DNA of 64,000 nucleotides from Streptomyces coeruleorubidus. GTDB lineage: Bacteria; Actinomycetota; Actinomycetes; Streptomycetales; Streptomycetaceae. Shown here one piece after another: positions 44,681 to 52,993 of the stretch. The notes under the pieces were generated by a model. That model saw only the letters and a list, made by a program, of their open reading frames with translations. It did no database searches and was not told the DNA's origin. Each line of letters starts with the position of its first letter. Position 1 is the stretch's first letter. The stretch spans positions 6,857,001-6,921,000 of the forward strand of contig NZ_CP023694.1 of NCBI RefSeq assembly GCF_008705135.1, written 5' to 3'. A program made the translations under genes and the position numbers.

Positions 44681-45241
44681 ATGCAGCCAAGCAAGGGCCG
44701 TCCCCGTAGAGACGGGGCCGGCCAGGAAAGTCCGGTCGAGCCACTCGACGGTGTCGGCCCGGTCCCGGCCGATGAGGCCGGGCGCCTCAGGTACGACGAT
44801 CCCTGGTACGACGCCCTCGCCTCCGGCTGGGGCGAGTCGGTGGGCGCCGGGGTGCCGGATCCGGCCGTGGTCCCGTCGGCACGCAGGGAGGGCGAGACCG
44901 GGGTCGCGGCGGCCGATGTGTATCTGGAGGTGCAGCGCAGCGAGGCCTTCCAGGAGGTGCGGCGGCGCTACCGGAGGTTCGTGGTGCCGGGCTTCGTGGC
45001 CTTCTTCGCCTGGTACGTAGGCTACGTCGTGGCTGCCACGACCGCGCCGGAGCTGATGGCGCGGCCCGTGGCGGGAGCGGTGAACGTGGCGCTGGTGGCG
45101 GGGCTCGGGCAGTTCCTGAGCACGTTCCTGTTCACCTGGGCGTACGCGCGGCACGCGCGGCTGCGCAGGGACCGGGCGGCGCTCGAACTGCGCTGGGACA
45201 CACAGGAGCTGACGCGCGGCGTCAACGGCGGTGTCTCGTGA
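44681..45241 (+). CDS. DUF485 membrane protein
   Basis: A 186-aa protein. The polar N-terminal ~85 residues contain a conserved-looking RYDDPWYDALASGWGE. The DUF485 domain starts at EVQRSEAFQEVRRRYRRFVVP, with two membrane spans around VPGFVAFFAWYVGYVVAATT and VNVALVAGLGQFLSTFLFTW. DUF485 proteins are encoded next to cation/acetate symporters, and here the stop overlaps the symporter start. The start is uncertain: the ATG at 44681 is chosen, a TTG at 44675 is adjacent, and neither has a good ribosome-binding site. Confidence 0.75.
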   Translation: MQPSKGRPRRDGAGQESPVEPLDGVGPVPADEAGRLRYDDPWYDALASGWGESVGAGVPDPAVVPSARREGETGVAAADVYLEVQRSEAFQEVRRRYRRFVVPGFVAFFAWYVGYVVAATTAPELMARPVAGAVNVALVAGLGQFLSTFLFTWAYARHARLRRDRAALELRWDTQELTRGVNGGVS

Positions 45242-46830
45242 CGGATGAACACCAGACGCTGGCACTGCTGCTGTTCAGCGGGTTCGTCGCGGTCACGCTG
45301 GCGATCACGACCTGGGTGAGCCGCAACCGGCGCGGTTCGGCGGAGGAGTTCTACGCGGGCGGGCGGCTCTTCTCACCCATGGAGAATGGTTTTGCCATCG
45401 CCGGTGACTACATGTCGGCCGCCTCCTTCCTGGGGGTCACCGGCCTCATCGCGCTGTTCGGCTACGACGGGCTGCTGTATGTCGTCGGCTTCCTCGTGGC
45501 CTGGCTGGTGGTGCTGTTCCTCGTGGCCGAACTGGTCCGCAACTGCGGACGGTTCACGCTCGCGGACGTCGTGGCGGCGCGGATGAGGGAGCGACCGGTA
45601 CGGATCGCGGCGGGAACGTCCTCGGTCACCGTGTCCGTTCTGTATCTGGTGGCGCAGATGGTCGGCGCGGGCAGCCTGGTGGCGCTGCTGCTCGGGGGCA
45701 CGAGTGAGGCGGCGCGCGACTGGACCGTCATCGGGGTCGGCGCGCTCATGGTGATCTATGTGTCGCTGGGAGGTATGCGGGCTACGACGTGGATCCAGAT
45801 CGTCAAAGCCGTCCTGCTGCTCGGTGGCACGATCGCGCTGACGGTGCTCGTCCTGATGCGCTTCCACGGCGACCTGGACCGGCTGCTGCTCACGGCGGCC
45901 GAGCGCAGCGGTCATGGGCAGGCGTTTCTGGCGCCCGGTCTGAAGTACGGCGGGGACTGGACCGCCCGTTTCGACTTCATCAGTCTGGGGCTTGCCCTGG
46001 TGCTGGGCACGGCCGGGCTCCCGCACATCCTGTCCCGCTTCTACACCGTGCCCACCGCGCGCGCCGCACGCCGCTCGGTCGTGTGGGCCGTCGGGCTCAT
46101 CGGCGGTTTCTACCTGATGACGATCGTGCTGGGATTCGGGGCGGCCGCCGTCGTGGGTCCGGACGCGGTACGCGGGTCGAACGCGGCCGGGAACACGGCC
46201 GTTCCGCTGCTGGCGCTCGATCTGGGCGGTGGTGCCGGATCCACGGGTGGAACGGTTCTCTTCGCGATCGTCGCCGCGGTCGCCTTCGCCACGATCCTCG
46301 CCGTGGTCGCCGGGATCACACTCGCGTCCTCGGCGTCGGTGGCCCACGACCTGTACGCGTCCCTGCGGCGCCCGCGCGGCAAGCCCCGTAGCGAGGTGGC
46401 CGTGGCCCGTGTCGCGGCCGTCGGTGTCGGCGTGGTGGCGATCGCCCTCGGGCTGCTGGCGCGGGATCTCAACGTCGCGTTCCTGGTGGGCCTCGCCTTC
46501 GCCGTCGCCGCGTCGGCGAACCTTCCGGTGCTGCTCTACTCCCTGTTCTGGAGCCGCTTCACCACACGCGGAGCCGTGTGGGCCGTCTACGGCGGTCTGG
46601 TCCCGGCCCTGGTGCTCGTGGTGCTGTCCCCGGTGGTTTCCGGAAGCCCCGACTCACTGTTCCCGAGCGTCGACTTCCGGTACTTCCCGTTGCAGAACCC
46701 GGGTCTGGTCTCGATCCCGCTGGGCTTCCTCGCGGGCTGGCTGGGCACGGTCACCTCGGCGGAGGTCCCGGACGAGGCCAGGCACGCGGAGACCGAGGTG
46801 CGGTCGCTGACCGGGGCGGGAGCGGCGTAG
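45238..46830 (+). CDS. sodium/solute symporter (SSS, cation acetate symporter type)
   Basis: A 530-aa sodium:solute symporter with about 13 membrane spans. AEEFYAGGR near residue 35, GDYMSAASFLGVTGLIALFG and YLVAQMVGAGSLVALLLGG are typical of ActP-like cation acetate symporters, as is the LPHILSRFYTVPTARAAR segment. The GTG at 45238 overlaps the DUF485 stop. A convergent CitA/CitB-type two-component system follows and may regulate it. The substrate is probably a small carboxylate such as acetate, by family. Confidence 0.88.
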   Translation: MTDEHQTLALLLFSGFVAVTLAITTWVSRNRRGSAEEFYAGGRLFSPMENGFAIAGDYMSAASFLGVTGLIALFGYDGLLYVVGFLVAWLVVLFLVAELVRNCGRFTLADVVAARMRERPVRIAAGTSSVTVSVLYLVAQMVGAGSLVALLLGGTSEAARDWTVIGVGALMVIYVSLGGMRATTWIQIVKAVLLLGGTIALTVLVLMRFHGDLDRLLLTAAERSGHGQAFLAPGLKYGGDWTARFDFISLGLALVLGTAGLPHILSRFYTVPTARAARRSVVWAVGLIGGFYLMTIVLGFGAAAVVGPDAVRGSNAAGNTAVPLLALDLGGGAGSTGGTVLFAIVAAVAFATILAVVAGITLASSASVAHDLYASLRRPRGKPRSEVAVARVAAVGVGVVAIALGLLARDLNVAFLVGLAFAVAASANLPVLLYSLFWSRFTTRGAVWAVYGGLVPALVLVVLSPVVSGSPDSLFPSVDFRYFPLQNPGLVSIPLGFLAGWLGTVTSAEVPDEARHAETEVRSLTGAGAA

Positions 46831-47001: not shown

Positions 47002-47682
47002 CTAGGCGCGGGTCGCCCACACGTAACGGTGTTCCGGGCGGCCCGCGTCGCCGTACTTGAGGGTCAGCCTGGCCCGTCCCGTGCGTTCCAGGAGCTTCAG
47101 ATAGCGCTGGGCGGTCTGGCGGCTCACCCCGGTCCGCTCGGCGATCTCCTGCGCGGACAGCGGCCCGTCCGCGTTCATCAGGGACTGACGGACCAGCTCC
47201 GCGGTGGTGGGGGAGTGACCTTTGGGCAGGTCCGGCTCGGAGGGGGTCGACAGCGCCCCGAAGATGCGGTCGACCTCGGCCTGCTCCGCCTCCCCGCCGC
47301 CGTCGAGGGTGCGGCGCAGTTCCGCGTACGCCTCCAGCTTGGAGCGCAGGCCGGCGAAGGCGAACGGCTTGACCAGGTACTGCAACGCGCCGTGCCGCAT
47401 CGCCGCCTGCACGGTGGAGACATCCCGGGCCGCCGTCACCATGATCACGTCGGTCTGGTGGCCGCGCCGGCGCATCTCCTGGACGACCGCGATCCCCGTC
47501 TCGTCGGGCAGGTAGTGGTCCATGAGCACCAGGTCGAGCCGGGGCAGCGTCTCCAACTGACGCAGCGCGTCCGCGGCGCTGTGGGCCTCGCCGGCGACAT
47601 GGAAGCCCGGCACTTTCTCGACGTAGGCGGCGTTGACCCGCGCGACCCTGGTGTCGTCGTCCACGACCAGCACCTCGATCAT
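47002..47682 (-). CDS. CitB/DcuR-type response regulator
   Basis: A 226-aa response regulator of the CitB/DpiA group. The receiver has VLVVDDDTRVARVN, LVLMDHYLPDETG with the phospho-acceptor Asp, and QYLVKPF with the Lys. The C-terminal part carries a winged helix-turn-helix: LSAQEIAERTGVSRQTAQRYLKLLERTG. The ATG at 47682 has GGAGGAG 5 nt upstream and overlaps the kinase stop by one base (TGATG), so translation is coupled. Known relatives respond to citrate or C4-dicarboxylates. It converges with the symporter gene and may control carboxylate uptake. Confidence 0.9.
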   Translation of the reverse strand: MIEVLVVDDDTRVARVNAAYVEKVPGFHVAGEAHSAADALRQLETLPRLDLVLMDHYLPDETGIAVVQEMRRRGHQTDVIMVTAARDVSTVQAAMRHGALQYLVKPFAFAGLRSKLEAYAELRRTLDGGGEAEQAEVDRIFGALSTPSEPDLPKGHSPTTAELVRQSLMNADGPLSAQEIAERTGVSRQTAQRYLKLLERTGRARLTLKYGDAGRPEHRYVWATRA

Positions 47683-49352
47683 CACGACTCCTCCTTGACG
47701 GTTTGCGGAGCTGACGGCACGGTCAGGGCCGGTTCCGGGCCCGGCTGGGCCAGCGCCTCGGGCAGGACGACGGTGAACTCCGCGCCTCCGCCGTGCGCCT
47801 CGCCGACGGTCGCGCTGCCCCCCTGCCGCTCGGCGAGCCTGCGCACCAGGGAGAGTCCGATGCCCCGCTCGCGGTGCGCGGGCGGCTTCTTCGTGGACCA
47901 TCCCTCGGTGAAGATCAGCTCCCGGTGCTCCGGCGGGATTCCCGGCCCCGTGTCGCGCACCCGGAGGATCGCCGTACGACCCTCGGCGCGCAGTTCGACC
48001 TCCACGCGTGCGTGCGGCTTGCCCGCGACGGCGTCGAGGGCGTTGTCCACCAGGTTGCCGACGACGGTGACGAGCCCCTGGGGGTCGATCAGCCGGTCCG
48101 GCAGCCGGGTCCGGTCCGACACCCACAGTGCGACGCCCCGCTCGGCCGCGACGGTCGCCTTGCCGACCAGCAGGGCGGCGAGCAACGGGTCCTCGATCCG
48201 CTCGGTGACCTGCTCCGCGGTCGCCCGGTGGTCGCCGACCACTTCGCCGACGAACTCCACGGCGTCGTCGTACATATCCAGTTCGAGCAGGCCCAGGAGC
48301 GTGTGCATACGGTTGGCGTGCTCGTGGTCCTGGGCGCGCAGCGCGTCGATCAGGCCGCGGGTGGAGTCGAGCTCGCGGCCCAGCTGCTCCAGCTCGGTGC
48401 GGTCGCGCAGGGTGGCCACGGCGCCGCCGTCGTCGGTGGGCATGCGGTTGGCGACCAGCACCCGCTGGCCGCGGACGGTGAGCAGGTCCGTACCGGCCAC
48501 GCGCCCGGCCAGCACGTCGGCCGTGCGGCCCGCCCCGAGCGCCTCGTCGGGGGAACGGCCCACCACCGCGTCCCCGATGCCCAGCAGCCGCTGCGCCTCG
48601 TCGTTGACGAGCCGGATGCGGCCGGTGCGGTCCAGGGCGACGACGCCCTCCCGGATGCCGTGCAGCATCGCCTCGCGTTCCGACAGGAGCGACGCGATGT
48701 CCGAGAAGGCCAGGTCCCTGGTCTGCCGCTGGACCCGCCGGGAGATGAGCCACGCGGCCAGCGCGCCTACGGCCAGGGCACCTCCGGCGTACGCGAGCAG
48801 CCCCGGGATCGCGTGGATCAGCCGGGCCCGGACGCTGTCGTAGGCGATGCCGACCGAGACGGCGCCGACGACCGTGCCGTCGCTGTCACGCAGCGGCACC
48901 TTGCCGCGGGCGGAGCGGCCCAGGGTGCCGCTGTCGATCTCCATGACCTCCTTGCCCGCCAGGGCCTGGCCGGGGTCGGTCGAGACGATGCCGCCGATCT
49001 GCTTCGGGTCGGTGTGCGACCACCGCACGCCCCGCCAGTCCATCACCACGACGTACTCGGCCTTGGTGGCCTTCCGGATCCGCTCGGCTTCCCTCTGCAC
49101 CGGACCGTTCGGTGAGGGAGGCGTGTCCCTCACCTCCTCCGCGAGGCCCGGCTGTTGCGCGGTGGTCTGCGCGATGGCGAGCGCTCGGCGCATCGCCTGG
49201 TCGTCCAGCTGGTCGCTCAGGGGCGCGAGGAACAGCCCGGTCGCGAGGACCGCGACTCCCGCGGCGATCGCCACTTGCATCAGCAGCACCTGCGAGAACA
49301 CCCGCCGGGGCAGGCCGAGGCGCAGGCGGCGTGCGGGGGGAGTGGGGCTCAT
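47682..49352 (-). CDS. CitA/DcuS-type sensor histidine kinase
   Basis: A 556-aa sensor kinase. A first membrane span at VLLMQVAIAAGVAVLATGLF leads into an extracytoplasmic PAS-like sensor domain of about 130 residues (YVVVMDWRGVRWSHTDPKQIGG), then a second span near LLAYAGGALAVGALAAWLI. A cytoplasmic PAS domain follows (GVVALDRTGRIRLVNDEAQR), then the His-containing RAQDHEHANRMHTLLGL and the ATPase domain with VVGNLVDNALDAV and DTGPGIPPEH. This order matches CitA/DcuS carboxylate sensors. The ATG at 49352 was chosen; a TTG at 49358 is possible. Confidence 0.93.
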   Translation of the reverse strand: MSPTPPARRLRLGLPRRVFSQVLLMQVAIAAGVAVLATGLFLAPLSDQLDDQAMRRALAIAQTTAQQPGLAEEVRDTPPSPNGPVQREAERIRKATKAEYVVVMDWRGVRWSHTDPKQIGGIVSTDPGQALAGKEVMEIDSGTLGRSARGKVPLRDSDGTVVGAVSVGIAYDSVRARLIHAIPGLLAYAGGALAVGALAAWLISRRVQRQTRDLAFSDIASLLSEREAMLHGIREGVVALDRTGRIRLVNDEAQRLLGIGDAVVGRSPDEALGAGRTADVLAGRVAGTDLLTVRGQRVLVANRMPTDDGGAVATLRDRTELEQLGRELDSTRGLIDALRAQDHEHANRMHTLLGLLELDMYDDAVEFVGEVVGDHRATAEQVTERIEDPLLAALLVGKATVAAERGVALWVSDRTRLPDRLIDPQGLVTVVGNLVDNALDAVAGKPHARVEVELRAEGRTAILRVRDTGPGIPPEHRELIFTEGWSTKKPPAHRERGIGLSLVRRLAERQGGSATVGEAHGGGAEFTVVLPEALAQPGPEPALTVPSAPQTVKEES

Positions 49353-49456
49353 ACCCAAGAAGGTACGTGGGGCCGGCTAGCTGCCGTAATGGGTGTGGCG
49401 TGGATCTCTTGATCAATGCTTGAGGAGACGATCCGGACCCGCGGCCTGTGGACCGG

Positions 49457-50454: not shown

Positions 50455-51723
50455 CTACTCCGGTAGTGGCTGAGGGGGTTTCGGACCGGCGTAGAGACCG
50501 CTCGGGCGCATGCGCAACGGCCGCTCGCCGTACTCCTCCAGGGCGTGGGCGATCCAGCCTGCCGTACGGGCCACCGCGAAGATCGTCTCGCCCGCGGTCG
50601 GGGGCATGCCGCAGGACGTGGTGAGCACGGCGAGCGCCAGGTCGACGTTGGCGTGCAGCGGGGCGTGGCGGGCGGTGGTCTCGACGATGTCCCGGGCCGC
50701 GAGGAGAGCGGGTTCCGCGCGCGGGATTCGCTCCAGGAGGGCGAACAGGGCACGCGCGCGTGGGTCCTCGCCCGGGTAGAGCCGGTGGCCGAGTCCCGGG
50801 ATGCGGCGGCCGGCGCGCAGTTCGTCCGCGATCACGGGCGCGGCGTCGCCCTGGTCGAGCACGTCGACGAGCAGCCGGTGGGCGAGACCGCTGGCCGCGC
50901 CGTGCAGCGGGCCCTCGATCACGCCGAGTCCGGCGGAGACCGCCGCGTAGGCGTGGGCACGGGCCGACGCGGCGACGCGCACCGCGAGCGTGGAGGCCGC
51001 CAGGTCGTGGTCGACGAGGAGGGCGAGGGCGGTGTCCAGGGCGCGCAGGGACGCCTCGTCGGGGTCCTTGCGCGGCGACAGCCGGGTCCACAGGCGGTGG
51101 GCCAGGGGCCCCTCGTCGCGGCGGTCGTGTCCCGCCGGTGGCAGAGCGGCGACGAGCGTGGGAATGAGGGTGCGCGCCGTGCCGAGCACGGCGTCCTCGG
51201 ACAGGTCGTAGCGCAGCGGGTCGGCGGTCGCGGCGGCGATCGTCGCGACGCGCAGCAGGTCGGTGGGCGCGGCGTGTTCGGGCAGCGTGTCGACGGCGCG
51301 GCGCGCGACGGCGACCGAGGCGGCCGGCGCGGTGAACGTGGTGCCCGGCCGCATCCGGCCGGTCCACAGCCACTCGGCGACCTCCTCGTAGCTGTGCCGG
51401 GTGGCCAGGTCGACGGCGTCGACACCGCGGTAGTAGTAGCGGTCGCTCTCGATGAGGGTGATGCGGGTCCGTACGGACAACTCGCCGCCGGAGGGGGAAC
51501 TCCCCGCGGCATCCCGCCTGTTGCGCCGGGCGAGCGCATCGACCTCCCTGGCGTCGAAGGTGCTGCCTCGTCCGCCGGTAACCCGCCGGCTGCTGAGCTG
51601 ACCGCGGCTCACGTACGCGTACACGGTCTCCGGCTTCACGCCGAGCAGTTCGGCGGCCTCCTTGGTGCTCAGCCGCCGTTCAGCGTCGCGGGGGGAGGGT
51701 TCTTGATCGCGCATGGGGGTCAC
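50455..51723 (-). CDS. citrate-synthase-family protein with N-terminal helix-turn-helix
   Basis: A 422-aa fusion. Residues about 15-75 form an excisionase/MerR-like DNA-binding domain: LSTKEAAELLGVKPETVYAYVSRGQLSSRR. The rest is a citrate-synthase-type fold with YYYRGVDAVDLA, EGPLHGAASGLAHRLL (catalytic His region) and GLGHRLYPGEDPRA (second His). Metabolic regulator activity is plausible: the enzyme domain may sense an acyl-CoA or oxaloacetate while the helix-turn-helix binds DNA. The GTG at 51723 is preferred over the ATG at 51714. It is divergent from a second citrate-synthase-like gene, with three TTGANTCAA palindromes in the shared region. Confidence 0.88.
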   Translation of the reverse strand: MTPMRDQEPSPRDAERRLSTKEAAELLGVKPETVYAYVSRGQLSSRRVTGGRGSTFDAREVDALARRNRRDAAGSSPSGGELSVRTRITLIESDRYYYRGVDAVDLATRHSYEEVAEWLWTGRMRPGTTFTAPAASVAVARRAVDTLPEHAAPTDLLRVATIAAATADPLRYDLSEDAVLGTARTLIPTLVAALPPAGHDRRDEGPLAHRLWTRLSPRKDPDEASLRALDTALALLVDHDLAASTLAVRVAASARAHAYAAVSAGLGVIEGPLHGAASGLAHRLLVDVLDQGDAAPVIADELRAGRRIPGLGHRLYPGEDPRARALFALLERIPRAEPALLAARDIVETTARHAPLHANVDLALAVLTTSCGMPPTAGETIFAVARTAGWIAHALEEYGERPLRMRPSGLYAGPKPPQPLPE

Positions 51724-51755
51724 GGTATCCGCCTAGGGGGCCATTGACCGATACA

Positions 51756-51764
51756 TTGATTCAA
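51756..51764. promoter_or_regulatory. palindrome TTGANTCAA, copy 1
   Basis: TTGATTCAA, a 9-bp palindrome in the divergent citrate-synthase-like region. Confidence 0.65.
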
Positions 51765-51780
51765 TCAATATTGACACAAC

Positions 51781-51789
51781 TTGAGTCAA
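51781..51789. promoter_or_regulatory. palindrome TTGANTCAA, copy 2
   Basis: TTGAGTCAA, 25 bp after copy 1. A TTGACA hexamer at 51771-51776 lies between copies 1 and 2 and could be a -35 element for the plus-strand gene. Confidence 0.65.
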
Positions 51790-51799
51790 CCATGGACAG

Positions 51800-51808
51800 T
51801 TGAATCAA
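51800..51808. promoter_or_regulatory. palindrome TTGANTCAA, copy 3
   Basis: TTGAATCAA, 19 bp after copy 2 and 25 bp before the plus-strand ATG. Confidence 0.65.
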
Positions 51809-51832: not shown

Positions 51833-52993
51833 ATGTCCGTCAACAGGTCCGCAGCCGCTCTCATCGACGCACCACGGGGACTCGCCGGTGTCGTCGTCAC
51901 CGACACCCGGATCGGTGACGTCCGTGGTGTCGAGGGCTTCTACCACTACCGGCAGTACTCCGCCGTCGACCTCGCGCGGACCCGCACCTTCGAGGATGTC
52001 TGGCACCTGCTCGTACACGGCGAACTGCCGGACGCCCGGCAGAGCGCGGTCTTCGCGGCGGAGACCGCGGCGCTGCGGCGGCTGCCCGACGAGGTGCGAG
52101 CGGCCCTGCCGGTCATCGCGGCGGCCGGCGGGCGCTCCGGCCCGCTCGCCGGGATGCGCACGGCGCTGTCGCTGCTGGGCGCCGCCAAGGGCTTCCGGCC
52201 CGTGTACGACATCGAAGCCGACCGGCGCAGGCAGGACACCCTCGAGGCGGCCGCGGCCGTACCCGCGCTGCTCACGGCGCTGCACCGGCTGGGGAAAGGG
52301 CTCGAGCCGGTGGAGCCGCGCGAGGACCTGTCGTACGCAGCCAACTACCTGTACATGTTGACCGGCTCGGTGCCGGCCGAGCGGCAGGCACGGGCGATCG
52401 AGCAATACCTGATCTCAACCATTGATCACGGATTCAATGCATCAACCTTCACGGCCCGGGTCATCGCGTCGACGGGTGCGGACGTGGCGGCATGCCTCGC
52501 CGGTGCGGTGGCGGCGCTGTCGGGGCCGTTGCACGGGGGTGCGCCTAGCCGCGCGCTGGACACCCTGGACGCGATCGGTACCCCGGACCGTATCGACTCC
52601 TGGGTACGGCAGCGGGTGCTCTCCGGTGAGCGCATCATGGGCTTCGGGCACGCCATCTACCGCACGGAGGATCCGCGCTCGCGGATGCTGCGCGAGGTCG
52701 CCCAGGGATTCGGCGGTCCGCGGGTGGACTTCGCCGTGGAGGTCGAGCGGCACGTCGAGGCGATCCTGGCGGAGCTGAAGCCGGGCCGCGAACTCCACAC
52801 CAACGTCGAGTACTACGCGGGCGTGGTCATGGAGCTCTGCGGCCTGCCCCGGGAGATGTTCACACCGACATTCGCCGCCGCGCGCGCGGTGGGCTGGAGC
52901 GCCAACATCCTGGAACAGGCGGAGGACACGAAGATCATCAGGCCGGTTGCGCGCTATGTGGGACCGGCTCCGCAAGGAAGTGGGGGCGTCTGA
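51833..52993 (+). CDS. citrate synthase / methylcitrate synthase family protein
   Basis: A 386-aa citrate-synthase-family enzyme, which condenses acetyl-CoA or propionyl-CoA with oxaloacetate. Catalytic segments are SGPLHGGAPSRALD, MGFGHAIYRTEDPRS with the His, and FAVEVERHVEAI followed by LHTNVEYYAGVVM near the Asp region. DTRIGDVRGVEGFYHYR near the N-terminus is usual. The ATG at 51833 follows AGGGAGGAAG. It is shorter than type I citrate synthases, and whether citrate or methylcitrate is the product cannot be read. The divergent helix-turn-helix fusion gene probably controls it through the palindromes between them. Confidence 0.9.
   Translation: MSVNRSAAALIDAPRGLAGVVVTDTRIGDVRGVEGFYHYRQYSAVDLARTRTFEDVWHLLVHGELPDARQSAVFAAETAALRRLPDEVRAALPVIAAAGGRSGPLAGMRTALSLLGAAKGFRPVYDIEADRRRQDTLEAAAAVPALLTALHRLGKGLEPVEPREDLSYAANYLYMLTGSVPAERQARAIEQYLISTIDHGFNASTFTARVIASTGADVAACLAGAVAALSGPLHGGAPSRALDTLDAIGTPDRIDSWVRQRVLSGERIMGFGHAIYRTEDPRSRMLREVAQGFGGPRVDFAVEVERHVEAILAELKPGRELHTNVEYYAGVVMELCGLPREMFTPTFAAARAVGWSANILEQAEDTKIIRPVARYVGPAPQGSGGV

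Follow-up and report, generated by a model that had tools for sequence, protein, structure and literature searches.

What acts on the short palindromes that lie between two divergent citrate-synthase-like genes in this stretch of DNA (64 kb in full, hereafter the window)? The minus-strand gene (50455 to 51714, with its ATG at 51714 to 51712) encodes a 419-amino-acid protein in which a helix-turn-helix (HTH) is joined to a citrate synthase domain, and the plus-strand gene (51833 to 52993) encodes a citrate synthase of 386 amino acids. From their place and neighbors, we take these genes to be orthologues of SCO5831/citA3 (the fusion) and SCO5832/citA4 (the synthase). An earlier note had proposed that the fusion binds the palindromes as a ligand-sensing repressor of its own paralogue. 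Our reading as a whole, which we consider likely, is that the fusion senses a ligand and acts as a transcription factor, probably a repressor, on the gene of the neighboring citrate-forming enzyme.

Domain architecture of the divergent pair

The description of the minus-strand product as a fusion of an HTH with a citrate synthase fold is borne out by its domain matches. HTH_17 (approximately residues 14 to 65, numbered from the residue after Met) is matched at 35.9 bits against a cutoff of 27 and Citrate_synt (PF00285, residues 78 to 403) at 216.7 bits against 27. A model of the fusion built with AlphaFold2 (mean pLDDT, 87.9; pTM, 0.77) has citrate synthases as its best fold matches in the PDB, with an E value of 1.7e-15. 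The fusion remains below the cutoffs of the citrate synthase models PRK12350 (163.5 against 332) and TIGR01800 (151.8 against 421.3). With HTH models, it scores above the cutoffs of the excisionase model TIGR01764 (32 against 28.8) and Pfam MerR_1 (24.8 against 21.6) and below those of MerR (27.3 against 28.2) and BldC (20.3 bits against 77). Among 27 fusions that we compared residue by residue, which are 37 to 91% identical to the one in the window, the excisionase and BldC models each matched 19 at an E value of ≤0.001, and 8 fell short with the excisionase model. Excisionase-type proteins and, weakly, BldC resemble the fusion in the HTH; the fusion differs from them by the addition of a citrate synthase domain of ~330 residues.

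The plus-strand synthase scores 367.4 bits with Citrate_synt, lies above the cutoff of PRK12350 (348.5 against 332), and lies below that of TIGR01800 (332.3 against 421.3). Its closest solved relative is citrate synthase 1 of Bacillus subtilis (2c6x), with which it shares a Glu in the motif NVEYYAG, at a position where citrate synthases usually have the catalytic Asp. In two genomes, G012 (L259/L260) and G095 (L261/L262), the synthase gene is split, with its N-terminal part beside the operator and fusion and the remainder ~4.5 Mb and ~164 kb away, respectively; the break points differ.

A conserved half-site between the two genes

The three 9-bp palindromes reported ahead of the synthase gene, TTGATTCAA (51756 to 51764), TTGAGTCAA (51781 to 51789), and TTGAATCAA (51800 to 51808), are present as claimed and are the only matches to TTGANTCAA in the window, for which 100 shuffles gave a mean of 0.08 matches and a maximum of 1. 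Across the 9.34-Mb Streptomyces genome (one contig), three of the six TTGANTCAA sites fall at this locus. The remaining sites of this genome are at 2951238, 4101735, and 6954126.

As a conserved unit, however, the 9-bp palindrome did not hold up. A first hint that it is not the unit was that the paired 9-mer pattern occurs in only 11 of 150 Streptomyces genomes. We aligned the fusion-synthase intergenic regions from 76 of the best 80 loci listed, all from Streptomyces (best identity, 98%), leaving out L061, L080, L081, and L089, which have no adjacent synthase start by our rule. At least one TTGANTCAA match occurs in 58 of these 76 listed regions, with TTGAGTCAA in 7 and TTGAATCAA in 7, and TTGA, the left arm of palindromes 2 (at 51781) and 3 (at 51800), is found in only 6 and 3 of the 76, respectively. 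What is kept among the 76 listed orthologues is a set of five half-sites, TTGAY or RTCAA, in fixed register among variable neighboring columns. The first two, TTGAY at 51756 (74/76) and RTCAA at 51764 (75/76), form an inverted repeat, TTGAT-N3-ATCAA (51756 to 51768), a 13-bp palindrome (TTGATTCAATCAA) within which palindrome 1 sits and which recurs in distant pairs. Half-site 3 is TTGAC on the plus strand (51771 to 51775; TTGAY in 76/76). Half-site 4, GTCAA on the minus strand (51785 to 51789; RTCAA in 75/76), is the right arm of palindrome 2, and half-site 5, ATCAA on the minus strand (51804 to 51808; RTCAA in 72/76), is the right arm of palindrome 3. A possible sixth half-site, TTGAC on the plus strand (51744 to 51748), lies in the direction of the fusion gene's −35 region; TTGAY is found there in 41 of the 56 listed orthologues having the longer spacer. 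It is the half-site TTGAY/RTCAA, not the 9-mer, that has been conserved, and the earlier note recognized a genuine site by a motif that was in part accidental. Conservation in orthologous pairs, which the note had asked to be checked, holds for the site, which is kept in orthologous and distant pairs alike, but not for the 9-mers, which are only loosely conserved. The site itself is real and old.

Association of the operator with the fusion

We asked how closely this operator is tied to either gene across 150 Streptomyces genomes, the window's own included. The fusion (E ≤1e-100) was found in 94 genomes, the synthase (E ≤1e-120) in 94, and a strict operator, TTGAYN{3,5}RTCAANNTTGACA, in 88. 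Of the 94 synthase-bearing genomes, 88 have the strict operator, and of the 56 others none does; these counts are not independent events, given that the genomes share descent. The fusion accompanies the synthase in 91 of the 94 genomes, or in 93 after inspection of two misses (G149 and G112), in which it had been lost to the threshold or a contig end. Operators in G031, G084, G113, G136, and G137 have an altered arm, spacer, or base, and G027 has a synthase (72%) with neither fusion nor operator. At L061, L080, and L089, the core repeat stands beside the fusion with no synthase within the 9-kb locus. At L081, the synthase is found upstream of, and on the same strand as, the fusion and has a core of its own; the copy that remains beside the fusion has an altered third half-site.

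The association extends well beyond Streptomyces. Across 197 genomes sampled from the whole class, a synthase orthologue (E ≤1e-100) was found in 30, of which 29 also have fusion matches, six of them partial or split (G186, G188, G220, G303, G315, and G322); in the 30th, G164, the contig starts within the gene. The core TTGAYN{3,4}RTCAANNTTGAC occurs at 26 places in 24 genomes. Eighteen of these places are at the fusion/synthase junction, so that 18 of the 29 pairs have it, and the other 8 (in 6 genomes) are close in number to the matches of a reversed control (6 places). All ten f19/g37 pairs have TTGAY-N4-RTCAA with the third half-site not in register, and the repeat in G294 has an N5 spacer. 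A scripted junction test covered 35 loci, drawn from three sets (all 20 of the first, 1 of the 20 in the second, and all 14 of the third), and 33 complete pairs, 31 of them outside Streptomyces and two within it (L327 and L328); L321 and L324 were incomplete, and G258 (L264) lay outside the set. TTGAY-N3..6-RTCAA was found between the genes in 32 of the 33 pairs (0.12 expected from dinucleotide shuffles) and the three-half-site core in 22 of the 33 (0.00 expected). In the 33rd pair, L232, the core straddles the boundary of the interval that the script had drawn, which brings the repeat at the junction to 33 of 33.

In three of the 33 pairs, those of G156, G231, and G291, which belong to three different families, the divergent partner is an HMGL-like/HCS_D2 protein, by family unrelated to citrate synthase. 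These partners are 77 to 84% identical among themselves and score above the cutoffs of PF00682 and PF22617, and the one in G156 reaches 248.2 against a cutoff of 462.9 with the NCBIfam homocitrate synthase model. The operator beside them reads TTGAY-N5/6-RTCAA-N2-TTGAT, followed by GTCAA. That the same operator persists across this change of partner is our strongest evidence that it goes with the fusion and not with the synthase gene. The operator is kept across distant actinobacteria, even beside an unrelated enzyme. On sequence grounds, the case that the fusion is the operator's binder is strong, and the fusion is its best-supported owner, as the earlier note had suspected. A regulatory site between both genes is likewise supported; what the note did not foresee is that the partner is sometimes no paralogue.

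One report (PMC12016533), in its available part, relates Re-citrate synthase to homocitrate synthase, describes it as unrelated to the Si-type enzyme, and notes that it is often misannotated. We infer that the HMGL-like partner would make citrate, although it may instead have homocitrate, isopropylmalate, or citramalate synthase activity. Its place next to the same regulator and operator would make this unrelated enzyme a putative nonhomologous citrate synthase of actinobacteria.

It is also conceivable, though quite improbable in our view, that a different regulator, such as MtrA or GlnR, binds at the cluster and that the fusion is no more than a divergent citrate synthase whose HTH is vestigial. 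As a regulator, MtrA is general to the actinobacteria, yet the core is missing from all 56 synthase-less Streptomyces genomes. The way in which the operator follows the fusion when the partner changes argues against ownership by MtrA or GlnR, and the HTH residues L23, G24, V25, T29, Y31, Y33, S35, R36, and G37, invariant in 27 of 27 fusions, argue against a vestigial HTH. The available part of a study of Streptomyces coelicolor, in which the sco5831/sco5832 intergenic site matches ours in the region of half-site 5, reports that MtrA shifted an oligonucleotide probe containing TTGACTTAACTGTCCA, at half-site 5, and that sco5831 and sco5832 were both more expressed at late time points in an mtrA mutant; the MtrA consensus quoted there, GTAACC-N5-GTAACC, is unlike TTGAY/RTCAA (PMC12323332). 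The S. coelicolor work treats both proteins as citrate synthases under MtrA and, in the portions available, mentions neither an HTH nor an operator of its own for SCO5831 (PMC12323332, PMC9739823).

We continue to favor the fusion as the binder. The MtrA report is one of the main facts against so simple a story, the others being three Streptomyces genomes and two further loci. G013, G107, and G110 have a full-length fusion with neither synthase nor operator, so that the fusion must have another job there or be decaying. In G258, the inverted repeat lies over the fusion start, the third half-site is altered, and the neighbor is MDMPI_N. In G511 (L324), a second fusion copy has neither a citrate synthase nor an HMGL-like partner and no repeat within 7.5 kb.

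Ligand sensing and the sign of regulation

By analogy with pig citrate synthase, we take H235, H270, H309, R318, D357, R382, and R402 of the fusion to be residues of the oxaloacetate and catalytic sites. Six of these (H235, H270, R318, D357, R382, and R402) are invariant in 27 of 27 fusions, and H309 is kept in 25. In L116 and L119 (f18 g64), this second catalytic histidine is replaced by A or M (GLGAR and GLGMR), while the operator and partner are kept. Invariance of the site residues, together with the loss of H309 in two fusions, makes a ligand-binding role likely and suggests that full catalysis is dispensable somewhere. The retention of the oxaloacetate-site residues is consistent with the proposal that a metabolic enzyme fold serves here as a regulator.

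These residues also bear on whether the fusion might bind DNA while still working as a citrate or methylcitrate synthase, as a trigger enzyme that reports its own turnover and not the ligand level alone. Most fusions do have all catalytic residues (H270 and D357 without exception, H309 in 25 of 27). However, the replacement of H309 in L116 and L119 alongside a retained operator and partner implies that full catalysis is dispensable there, and the fusion in the window is far under the citrate synthase cutoffs, even with its best model (PRK12350). We regard a catalytically active regulator as rather unlikely.

In the mechanism that we prefer, the fusion would be a transcription factor, with an excisionase/MerR-like HTH joined to a citrate synthase fold, that binds the TTGAY/RTCAA half-sites grouped in the space between its own gene and the divergent one. 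Given that the oxaloacetate-binding residues are kept, its likely signal would be oxaloacetate and/or acyl-CoA (or citrate), an assignment in which we have moderate confidence, and binding of the ligand would shift the placing of the two HTHs in the dimer. If this is true, central carbon metabolism in Streptomyces gains a sensor built from the enzyme fold itself, and for that reason one whose ligand can be predicted and readily tested.

What binding would do to transcription depends on the promoters. TTGACA (51771 to 51776), which includes half-site 3, and GACAGT on the plus strand (51795 to 51800), 18 bp from it, look like the −35 and −10 of a synthase promoter; these candidates are drawn from conservation, TTGACA-N17..19-GACAGT occurring together in 73 of the 76 listed orthologues. 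On the minus strand, AC(C/G)GTA (TAC(G/C)GT as read on that strand) stands just before the fusion start in 75 of the 76 listed orthologues. In the window, this candidate −10 of the fusion gene, TACCGT (51722 to 51727), is 7 bp before the ATG, so that the fusion mRNA would be leaderless. The half-sites overlay the candidate −35 and the spacer of the synthase promoter. A bound fusion would thus cover the synthase −35 and spacer and reach toward its own promoter, the most likely outcome being repression of the synthase and of the fusion itself.

The opposite sign, in which the fusion would bind the operator as an activator and reshape the promoter as MerR does, seems to us unlikely. The HTH does score with MerR, excisionase, and, weakly, BldC models, and half-site 4 lies between the candidate −35 and −10. 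Half-site 3, on the other hand, is inside a good −35, TTGACA, and the 18-bp spacer of the putative promoter is not stretched, a combination that favors occlusion. Repression of the synthase by covering TTGACA is accordingly our preferred sign, held with moderate confidence.

An element of rare codons within the synthase gene

The synthase gene also contains half-site sequences, ~590 bp inside the gene and ~650 bp from the upstream operator. This plus-strand element (52415 to 52447) consists of TCAA (52415 to 52418), TTGAY (52422 to 52426), and RTCAA (52441 to 52445) written in rare AT-ending codons. We aligned the codons of 76 synthase genes (the window's and 75 listed ones; L073 was dropped as frame-broken), and the 11 codons of the element have the highest A/T third-position excess in the gene, 4.23 (mean, 0.01; standard deviation, 0.79). 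Among the 76 listed genes, TTGAY at 52422 is kept in 73 and RTCAA at 52441 in 63, the next-best intragenic half-sites being TTGAY at 52409 (37/76) and at 52358 (29/76); mean identity over 400 sampled pairs of these genes is 83%, and part of the conservation may be descent.

The rare codons might instead serve translational pausing or an RNA element, a possibility that we take seriously but doubt. It gains from the fact that the opening codons of the gene (51845 to 51877) exceed the element when codon rarity alone is scored (2.17 versus 1.90), from the failure of RTCAA at 52441 in 13 of the 76 listed genes, and from the absence of the element in other families and in deeper Streptomyces that have the upstream operator. 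It is countered by codon choices that fit the half-site. The Ile codon is ATT in 72 of 75 listed genes, against 9.5% gene-wide, and is followed by Asp as GAT or GAC; Ala before TCA is GCG or GCA and never GCC, in 74 of 75. The corresponding motif of a paralogous synthase, compared in 24 loci, has a GC3 of 0.98, which likewise speaks against a translational or RNA role.

We rate an auxiliary operator as a weakly to moderately supported role for the element. An ancestral intragenic site was rejected, as it is absent from 18 non-Streptomyces loci (L227 to L244). It is also missing from L249, L253 to L256, L258, and L260 and present in L257 and L262, and to judge from this distribution the element is an addition specific to one Streptomyces clade. 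If true, it would be a case of rare codons encoding a DNA site.

Many actinobacteria appear, from these comparisons, to switch a neighboring citrate-making gene by means of a DNA-binding relative of citrate synthase. Only tentatively, in a reading whose prospects we judge to be nearly balanced but somewhat on the doubtful side, would we go further and propose a widespread group of actinobacterial one-component regulators with a citrate-synthase-fold sensor and a TTGAY/RTCAA operator, which would control any adjoining citrate-forming enzyme, whether Si-type or of an unrelated Re-type-like kind, and to which one clade would have added an intragenic rare-codon operator enabling looping or a roadblock.

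Related systems and genomic surroundings

In B. subtilis, the gene of a minor citrate synthase (citrate synthase 1), citA, stands beside the divergent repressor gene citR, and the window similarly pairs a synthase gene with a divergent regulator gene. CitR is a LysR-type protein, unlike the regulator in the window, which itself has the citrate synthase fold. PutA, NadR, and BirA are trigger enzymes that combine an enzyme fold with an HTH and control genes of their own pathways, but to our knowledge none has a citrate synthase fold; the fusion differs from them in having one and in that its neighbor is a homologous or an unrelated enzyme. Caulobacter CitA is a citrate synthase that also regulates, independently of its catalysis, but it acts on cell-cycle entry, and no HTH or operator of its own is mentioned in the available part of the report (PMC7083601).

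The S. coelicolor citA3/citA4 genes are a pair of the same kind with a kinase gene nearby (PMC9739823). SCO5831 is more abundant in phosphate proficiency (PMC9739823, PMC8981147) and has been placed under the TCA cycle (PMC7324645), and it is not called a DNA-binding protein in the available portions of these three papers or of PMC12323332. The literature that we searched, which left most subscription journals outside its scope, yielded no description of an HTH-citrate synthase regulator.

Beside the locus are a sodium:solute symporter (SSF) gene on the plus strand (45238 to 46830) and, on the minus strand, a sensor kinase gene with sCache_3_2 and PAS domains (47682 to 49358). Together they would fit carboxylic acid uptake and sensing. 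A regulon beyond the locus was considered and rejected, loose matches to TTGAYN{3,5}RTCAA occurring at 18 places in the window's genome (9 in the reversed control) and the full core once. Within the fusion gene, no half-site reached a threshold of 20 among 81 sequences, except RTCAA at 51707, at the gene start, in 43 of the 81. Away from any fusion, an identical strong palindrome, TTGACATATGTCAACGTTGAC, occurs in G272 (L150 to L152 and L265) and in G105 (C1, 5222773), possibly as the site of another regulator or as a repeat. In the window's genome (G000, C1), TTGACTGGGGGTCAA occurs three times within 53 kb (8104972, 8128086, and 8157332), which suggests a local repeat.
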